A DNA stretch of 40,575 bases from Ignavibacteria bacterium (GTDB lineage: Bacteria > Bacteroidota > Ignavibacteria > Ch128b). Position numbers and translations under genes: made by a program. The notes beneath the pieces were generated by a model that saw only the letters and a program-made list of their open reading frames with translations, had not been told where the DNA came from and made no database searches. Positions 36,509 to 37,047 of the stretch are shown one piece after another. The first letter of the stretch is position 1. Every line of letters begins with the position of its first letter. The stretch spans positions 1 to 40,575 of the forward strand of contig VGVX01000017.1 of assembly GCA_016873845.1 (NCBI GenBank), in the 5' to 3' direction.

Positions 36509-36537
36509 TCATCAATTGTCCATTTTACATTTGCAAG

Positions 36538-36650
36538 TCGGGGAGAGAGTCAGTCAAATGACGGAGAACCTGCGACTTTGGCGCCGAAGGCGCCACGCTC
36601 TAGCCGGGCTGAGATATTTGAAGTTCTTTCAAATACCTTGACGCTCCCCT
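36538..36650 (-). pseudogene. Decayed tRNA-Pro copy with hairpin insertions (left copy)
   Basis: Aligned to the intact tRNA-Pro at 36852: the 3' acceptor (36538-36546), T-arm/variable region (36567-36578) and D-arm (36596-36613) match almost exactly. The 17-nt anticodon arm is replaced by another 17-nt sequence, TGGCGCCGAAGGCGCCA (36579-36595), a perfect 7-3-7 hairpin. The T-loop is interrupted by TCAGTCA-AA-TGACGGA (36550-36565). Between the D-arm and the 5' acceptor remnant (CTCCCC, 36644-36649) sits a perfect 8-5-8 hairpin (36615-36635). It cannot fold as a normal tRNA-Pro. Confidence 0.8.
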
Positions 36651-36851
36651 TGCTTTTATCCTTTTTTCTTCTTTCCTCGCCTCGGCTCGTGTTAGGAATT
36701 TCTAAAAAAGATCAATTGCCGCGGTATCCAAAACAAGTCGATTTTAATTCGCCTGGATTATCTTCAAGCAAGCGACTTTCAATATTGCTGCACAGCCAGA
36801 ATAGTATCGACCGGTTTTTCGATTGCGAAGAATGCAGGCATAAAACATTTG
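36651..36851. other. Spacer between tRNA-Pro copies
   Basis: About 200 bp with no gene, hairpin or repeat that I can defend. Slightly higher GC in places (GCCTCGGCTCG, about 36678-36690) than the surrounding intergenic DNA. Confidence 0.4.
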
Positions 36852-36926
36852 TCGGGGAGACAGGATTCGAACCTGCGACTTCTTGGTCCCAAACCAAGCG
36901 CTCTAGCCGGGCTGAGCTACTCCCCG
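36852..36926 (-). tRNA. tRNA-Pro (anticodon TGG)
   Basis: An intact cloverleaf on the minus strand: acceptor CGGGGAG/CTCCCCG, D-arm GCTC..GAGC with loop AGCCCGGCTA, anticodon stem CTTGG/CCAAG with loop TTTGGGA (anticodon TGG), T-arm GCAGG/CCTGT with TTCGAAT, discriminator A, no encoded CCA. 75 nt. It is the presumed parent of the two decayed copies on either side. Confidence 0.95.
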
Positions 36927-36967
36927 AATAATATATTTAAACAAAATTTTAAAGAACTCTAAAGCAA

Positions 36968-37047
36968 TCGAACATGCGACTTTGGCGCCAAAGGCGCCAC
37001 GCTCTAGCCGGGCTGAGTTTATCCCGCAACTGCGGGGCTACTCCCCG
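36968..37047 (-). pseudogene. Decayed tRNA-Pro copy with hairpin insertions (right copy)
   Basis: The 5' acceptor and TAGC (37047-37038) match the intact gene, then CCCGCA-AC-TGCGGG (37023-37036) with a few extra bases interrupts it before the D-arm. The D-arm is identical. The anticodon arm is again replaced by a 17-nt perfect hairpin, TGGCGCCAAAGGCGCCA (36983-36999), differing from the left copy by one loop base. The T-arm is partial (TCGAACATGCGACT) and the 3' acceptor is lost. The 5' acceptor is intact, so it may still be transcribed. Confidence 0.8.

Follow-up and report, generated by a model that had tools for sequence, protein, structure and literature searches.

A tRNA-Pro gene flanked by hairpin-bearing fragments and a decayed GIY-YIG nuclease gene in an Ignavibacteria bacterium, and related loci across Bacteroidota

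The window analysed here is a stretch of 40,575 nucleotides from an Ignavibacteria bacterium (assembly GCA_016873845.1, contig VGVX01000017.1). It harbours one tRNA-Pro gene, accompanied by two partial copies and by the remnant of a nuclease gene. The following features were identified at the locus:

36851-36926, minus strand: intact tRNA-Pro(TGG), the functional copy (ARAGORN; Rfam RF00005, 67.5 bits)
36964-37047, minus strand: copy R, a 5' tRNA-Pro fragment covering position 1 through the T-loop, ahead of the intact tRNA (BLAST, alignment)
36983-36999, minus strand: hairpin H of copy R, TGGCGCC-TTT-GGCGCCA, exactly in place of the anticodon arm
37023-37037, minus strand: D-arm hairpin of copy R (its second), with ATAAACTC behind it; belongs to a palindromic module
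36927-36963, minus strand: short spacer of 37 nt between copy R and the intact tRNA, GIY gene absent
36600-36848, minus strand: decayed GIY-YIG (Slx1/UPF0213-like) endonuclease gene (tblastn with intact relatives)
36614-36636, minus strand: inverted repeat that is coding sequence of the GIY remnant (...SRYLKELQI...)
36537-36613, minus strand: copy L, a 3' tRNA-Pro fragment spanning the D-arm through the 3' end, behind the GIY remnant
36579-36595, minus strand: hairpin H of copy L, TGGCGCC-TTC-GGCGCCA, exactly in place of the anticodon arm
36549-36562, minus strand: small hairpin (GTCA...TGAC) in the T-arm of copy L (sequence)

The intact tRNA-Pro(TGG) is the sole tRNA found at the locus with ARAGORN and Rfam. 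Read in the sense of the tRNA, copy R comes first, then the spacer and the intact tRNA, and copy L about 250 bp further on. In both copies the 17-nt replacement corresponds exactly to the anticodon arm, '(((((ccAAAcc)))))', and the D-arm CTCTAGCCGGGCTGAG flanking it is identical across the intact tRNA, copy R and copy L. The pattern TGGCGCC-NNN-GGCGCCA occurs twice in the window, compared with 0.02 by chance, and no shuffle yielded two. An earlier, sequence-only reading of this DNA had described hairpins replacing the 17-nt anticodon arm in two tRNA-Pro copies, and both their sequence and their coordinates are confirmed here. The two damaged copies of that reading do both bear the hairpin, but they are not equal wholes, copy L being a 3' fragment and copy R a 5' fragment. 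The proposed SINE-like family of dispersed repeats could not be upheld: the copy search of the whole genome revealed only the two hairpin copies of this locus, and fragments in relatives adjoin an intact copy of the same tRNA or stand in arrays of GIY genes.

The decayed GIY-YIG gene between tRNA-Pro and copy L had been missed. Its ATG (36848) is located 2 nt past the 3' end of tRNA-Pro, and its original stop is the TAG of the copy L D-loop. In the remnant, MFYACILRNRKTGRYYSGC lies close to the start and KARGASRYLKELQISQPG at the end; in-frame stops and a deletion are present. The best matches to it are intact nucleases from the tRNA-Pro loci of other genomes, the first being the nuclease at tRNA-Pro in locus L074 (tblastn, E = 5e-11) and the next reaching 2e-10; the reversed-sequence control of this search gave nothing below 0.15. 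Intact relatives match the profile PF01541 with an E value of 2e-17. The segment 36615-36635, formerly regarded as an extra hairpin of the tRNA copy, is coding sequence from the 3' end of this gene, and the supposed 5' acceptor strand of copy L is likewise GIY coding sequence.

A similar locus is present in genome G001 of the same genus. This ortholog (L066) has the same 5' fragment with another hairpin, TCCCGAC-TTT-GTCGGGA; compared with the hairpin of copy R, the loop is the same, three of the seven pairs are changed on both sides, and the neighbouring bases are nearly identical. The G001 locus offers an empty site, which retains the flanking genes and the 5' fragment, without the nuclease and the 3' fragment. 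An assembly error, once named as a possible refutation, is unlikely at the window locus because independent genomes share the layout, including the single-contig 5.2-Mb assembly G034, in which three GIY units stand in a tandem array. Likewise, it had been argued that only two copies in the genome and none in relatives would point to simple local duplication and decay. The genome does hold only two, but relatives carry replaced-arm copies, so this is not local decay, in agreement with the earlier view that more than decay is involved. Decay of a simple duplication was also rejected by the surveys of the class and the phylum. We give almost no credence to plain local tRNA duplication with decay, or to an assembly artefact, as the explanation of the locus: the number of copies in this genome would suit it, but the architecture recurs across numerous genomes, families and tRNA types, the single-contig assembly included.

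Among 109 small Slx1-like GIY-YIG ORFs of Ignavibacteria, 99 are located near a tRNA gene or fragment on the same strand and one near such a sequence on the opposite strand. Eighty of the 109 have an intact tRNA within 400 bp, compared with about 0.6% expected for random same-strand positions. In a phylum-wide sample of Bacteroidota, same-strand linkage was found for 52 of 64 and opposite-strand linkage for none. Since the profile was seeded with nucleases already seen at tRNA loci, these figures apply to the subfamily and not to all GIY-YIG genes; tandem copies are counted singly, and tandem and related copies are not independent. The class loci were collected by protein alone and comprise 80 regions plus eight loci of the own genome. 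Nearly all tRNA types are represented among the GIY-linked loci. The own genome has PF01541 matches at 14 places, and its small GIY genes are mostly found just behind tRNA-Met, Val, Ser and Lys, or among tandemly arrayed tRNA-Val fragments. A pair of identical GIY genes in tandem, lacking tRNA sequence, was also found (L087/L088; G000 C50, 11536-12240), flanked by nested hairpins CGAGTA-GTCCCGAT...ATCGGGAC-GTATCG; they are rare GIY elements away from tRNA.

A search of the 391 genomes of the class with the pattern AGAGCG-TGGCG-N7-CGCCA revealed 32 matches in 22 genomes, and one match in the reversed control. Named records with this pattern belong mostly to Ignavibacteria, Kryptoniota and Bacteroidota MAGs, and there was no exact match to the hairpin-in-tRNA pattern among the viral contigs searched. 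Two further matches were put aside. One, in a Rhodobacteraceae MAG, is not palindromic. The other, on a contig of a Chloroflexi MAG (QMIW01000098.1; L139, 7952-7974), is a 5' tRNA fragment with the hairpin TGGCGCTTCGAGCGCCA, and its presence outside Bacteroidota may reflect either transfer or misbinning.

The layout of tRNA, GIY gene and tRNA fragment, with the nuclease on the tRNA strand, recurs across Bacteroidota. The usual orders are tRNA - GIY - 3' tRNA fragment, or 5' tRNA fragment - (GIY) - tRNA. When the intact tRNA is upstream (type A), the 3' fragment lies behind the nuclease and extends as far as the tRNA 3' end in 52 of 67 cases; when it is downstream (type B), the 5' fragment precedes the nuclease and starts at position 1-2 in ten of 13. 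Several loci carry fragments on both sides. Where loci were inspected by eye, tRNA sequence directly adjoins the nuclease gene, with the junction 10-15 nt away from the arm that is replaced. Intrinsic terminators are often present between tRNA and nuclease. The spacers between 5' fragment and tRNA in L119, L118, L066 and L067 contain GTTCTTT- or GCTCTTTGACA-like motifs, which resemble the boxA antitermination signal of rRNA. Arrays can be long, as in L276 (G430 C34, 6300-10400), where eight tandem units of GIY gene and tRNA-Met fragment occupy 3 kb; the units of this array differ in their hairpins, some having an extra T-arm hairpin. In the own genome (G000), tRNA-Val(TAC) is followed by tandem intact GIY units (C98, 6309-6480; C75, 1-800; L083), and the fragments of this array carry TCCCGTCTCTT...AAGAGACGGGA. 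The G000 array probably has at least three units and breaks the assembly, since contigs C98 and C75 both end inside it.

The GIY domain spans nearly the whole ORF (about 80-110 aa), which makes these proteins essentially a bare domain. Their best matches among solved structures in a profile search are the UPF0213 proteins 1ZG2 (1e-13) and 1YWL, followed by SLX1. The catalytic Y, Y-x-G, R and E are 92-100% conserved in 76 proteins, and the residues Y, Y-G, R, H, E and K are near-invariant. Close pairs of nucleases have dN/dS values of 0.08-0.22. By these measures the sequences show a nuclease under purifying selection that has kept its catalytic residues. On the nuclease tree, tRNA type requires 25 changes (minimum 13, shuffled 54) and host family 43 (minimum 10, shuffled 52); the tree is built from few columns and many of its forks are weak, but the contrast between tRNA type and family does not depend on single branches. 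As judged from this tree, nuclease lineages track tRNA identity more closely than they do host family.

In the fragments a perfect palindrome stands in place of one arm, most often precisely the anticodon arm. Outer stems of at least 5 bp were found in 99 of 325 tRNA-anchored non-native replacements, compared with 3.6 in shuffled sequences, both counts being inflated by overlapping segmentations. Collapsing them left 73 hairpins (including a few alternative cuts of one hairpin and one reciprocal match to a native arm), of which 51 lie in the anticodon region, 15 in the T-arm and seven in the D-arm; in 32 of the 73 the replaced segment matches the anticodon arm within 1 nt. Fragments of tRNA-Pro, Val, Gln, Gly, Ile and Lys have exactly the anticodon arm replaced, and the T-arm is replaced over the same 8 nt in tRNA-Asp fragments from six genomes. 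Which arm is replaced depends on the nuclease clade: of the two GIY clades at tRNA-Met, one carries its hairpins in the anticodon region, and those of the other lie in the D- or T-loop. The earlier alternative of palindromic elements entering a tRNA locus again and again is partly right: the arm has indeed been swapped many times over, but the swap occurs at specific positions and goes with the nuclease lineage. A single founding event with later copying is too simple an account of nearly all tRNA types, differing hairpins and linkage to a GIY-YIG nuclease. In L103 (1782-1852) and L134, ARAGORN labels a hairpin-bearing pseudo-copy as tRNA-Cys(ACA).

Sixty-eight of 84 distinct hairpins are perfect. 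The mismatches comprise two GT and nine AC/CA, several of them segmentation artefacts, and in this small sample there is no G.U excess. Pair 7, which the search pattern left free, is CG in seven, GC in six and TA in four of the 20 distinct hairpins selected by their outer five pairs alone, giving 17 of 20 Watson-Crick pairs; pair 7 covaries. At two-sided loci, the hairpins on both sides of one tRNA share the stem and differ in the loop: among 13 pairs picked by hand, the outer 6 nt agree between left and right in 12, compared with 3.1 after shuffling, and none of 10,000 shuffles reached this agreement. Many other loci have a hairpin on one side only.

Selection on pairing could act at the level of RNA. 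The nuclease would then be a tRNA-specific, toxin-like RNase, and the fragment with its uncleavable arm would serve as decoy or antitoxin RNA, or as an insulator keeping the fragment from misfolding with a co-transcribed intact tRNA. The nuclease is always on the tRNA strand, its lineage tracks tRNA identity, and the anticodon arm is often the one replaced, all of which would be expected. An Slx1-like GIY domain fused to a TrmH-type tRNA methyltransferase, reported in PMC1564403, also fits. Nonetheless, the fragments are halves that are unable to form a cloverleaf, and intrinsic terminators often separate tRNA from nuclease. The perfect stems, with no G.U excess in a small sample, lean against selection on RNA pairing. 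To our knowledge, the known GIY-YIG enzymes cut DNA, which we count against this explanation as well, and we regard it as very improbable.

The same pairing data could be read in terms of transposition, with the hairpins as terminal recognition structures on which an Slx1-like nuclease acts as hairpin or cruciform DNA. A cassette [c1 - spacer or GIY - tRNA - GIY - a2] enclosed by two matching hairpins would be mobile and would enter the anticodon arm of a target tRNA together with a rescue tRNA. Matching stems with differing loops around one tRNA agree with such a cassette, as does perfect pairing with covariation and no G.U excess, expected for selection on DNA and not on RNA, and so do the closest solved relatives, namely UPF0213 proteins and the structure-specific nuclease SLX1. 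However, at many loci only one side has a hairpin, neither a target-site duplication nor an excised form was seen, and the window hairpin sequence is found nowhere else in the genome. Nuclease lineages also keep to one tRNA type, which is unusual for a transposon. Transposition of this kind is unlikely.

The hairpins of tRNA fragments belong to a wider palindrome habit of these genomes, since related TCCCG...CGGGA palindromes are located mostly outside tRNA loci: TCCCG-N5-9-CGGGA occurs at 42 places in the own genome, mostly not at tRNAs, compared with two in the reversed control. The second hairpin of copy R, in its D-arm, belongs to a module of hairpin and ATAAACTC that was found 47 times in 41 related genomes (three in the control), mostly away from tRNA genes. 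The module of hairpin and ATAAACTCC is present in tRNA fragments and in other palindromic repeats; it was rejected as a signature of GIY elements, being near a tRNA in seven of 35 among the sites listed, some of them twice. A dispersed repeat ...TTTTTGTCATGTTGAG-TCCCGA..TCGGGA-CGAAACATCTC... of the own genome (L299, L300, L301) consists of a small palindrome inside a larger palindromic repeat. A hairpin-GCGGGATAAACTCC-type module lies within a CATCCTGAG...GTCGAAGGAT-type repeat of related genomes (L322, L334, L336, L339), and modules of this type occur also in the D-arms of tRNA fragments.

Two independent processes could produce such a picture, if GIY elements only duplicated tRNA pieces and short genome-wide palindromes then colonised the functionless arms of pseudo-tRNAs. 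The 42 TCCCG palindromes, mostly off tRNAs, and the ATAAACTCC module shared between tRNA fragments and other palindromic repeats are what this predicts. It does not explain why the arm exchange is position-specific (8 nt of the T-arm for Asp, the anticodon arm in six other types), why hairpins on two sides match, or why the replaced arm varies with the nuclease clade, and we find this account quite unlikely.

We consider it probable that the window locus was left behind as a scar by a homing-type, chromosomal GIY-YIG nuclease element residing at tRNA genes. The comparison of loci strongly suggests that GIY-tRNA elements are mobile. No direct transfer from donor to recipient was seen among the loci compared. 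The nuclease would cut its cognate tRNA gene, or resolve a structure in it, and repair of the break would copy the nuclease and a tRNA segment into the cut gene. One complete tRNA would be restored, with the displaced half left outside the nuclease gene, and recombination between tRNA repeats would amplify or delete units, giving tandem arrays and solo fragments.

As for the role of the hairpin, we infer that it would mark the arm 10-15 nt from the nuclease junction as the one acted on by the nuclease; it would remove target and anticodon from the displaced half, while a stem-loop is retained there. Loss of the cut site in the fragment alone fails to explain how the carrier chromosome escapes, because the intact tRNA keeps the arm that is replaced. 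Destroying a target would also need no perfect palindrome, and this counts against the homing reading. Hairpins may be acquired separately, through colonisation of whatever inverted repeat lacks a function, since similar short palindromes occur away from tRNA genes too. The hairpin may be a removed target, a recognition structure of the nuclease, or an independent coloniser of dead inverted repeats; the two readings that tie it to the nuclease are favoured by position specificity and the matching of stems. A broader proposal, put forward tentatively as a possibility rather than an expectation, is that the smallest GIY-YIG nucleases make up a phylum-wide class of selfish elements on chromosomes. 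Each lineage would be specialised on one tRNA species; it would split the tRNA gene, bring a rescue tRNA and be bounded by hairpins with element-specific stems that the nuclease recognises.

SegB of T-even phages is the closest known system and a working precedent for such homing. SegB is a phage protein with regions beyond the GIY domain, whereas the chromosomal nucleases consist of an Slx1/UPF0213-like domain of about 80 residues alone, without a substantial extra DNA-binding region. According to the available part of PMC13096335 (citing Brok-Volchanskaya et al. 2008), SegB is a free-standing GIY-YIG homing endonuclease that cuts inside tRNA genes, the unit of tRNA and segB is amplified in tandem via recombination, and the segB 3' end and the tRNA 5' end share short homology. 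As far as that source goes, both systems have a GIY-YIG gene adjoining tRNA genes of many isotypes, and the chromosomal units likewise fuse the nuclease 3' end to tRNA sequence; half-tRNA fragments with hairpin arms and the fidelity of lineages to a tRNA are not described for SegB in this part of the source. We file the window element among tRNA-associated GIY-YIG elements; protein architecture speaks against membership of the SegB type. Standalone Slx1/UPF0213 proteins, the same family by profile, are described in PMC1564403 as mostly vertically inherited minimal GIY-YIG domains; linkage to tRNA genes or parasitism is not described for them in the available part of that source.

Group I introns in bacterial tRNA genes (PMC3984707) are mobile and some have homing endonucleases. 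The elements described here are without an intron and rescue the tRNA by duplication, not splicing; the Rfam scan of the window detected no group I intron, and its tRNA-Pro is continuous. REP palindromes are intergenic, are accompanied by TnpA-REP (RAYT) transposases of the Y1/HUH type, and contain no tRNA pieces. They are similar in that short palindromes with a shared stem surround a single-domain nuclease gene, but the linked nuclease here is a GIY-YIG protein and tRNA pieces are present. Genomic islands that integrate at tRNA genes possess an integrase and att repeats of the tRNA 3' end. There too the tRNA 3' end is duplicated and the gene restored; here, in contrast, there is no integrase, 5' fragments are present as well, and the whole cargo is a nuclease gene of about 250 bp. 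Among the genes flanking the window locus (PCMT, Kre9/KNH-like and NiFe hydrogenase genes) no integrase was found.

The literature search, with subscription journals and preprints outside its scope, found no description of these elements, in agreement with the earlier statement that no such family was known. They apparently form a large, undescribed group of tRNA-linked selfish elements. Transfer RNA genes are essential and few, and a tiny nuclease gene is present at nearly every type across the phylum. For annotation this is a warning, as at least one hairpin copy is called a tRNA by ARAGORN, such copies are liable to be misannotated as functional, and tRNA sequence is read into ORFs. The loci provide many natural experiments on how homing elements choose and spare their targets, and they extend the tRNA-linked amplification of phage SegB to bacterial chromosomes. 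A survey of the GIY-YIG family from 2006 (PMC1564403) raised the question whether further members are parasitic, and the elements give a concrete and testable answer concerning parasitic GIY-YIG proteins beyond homing and restriction enzymes. If true, the broader proposal of selfish elements specialised on single tRNA species would amount to a new form of parasitism of essential genes, without splicing or integrase.
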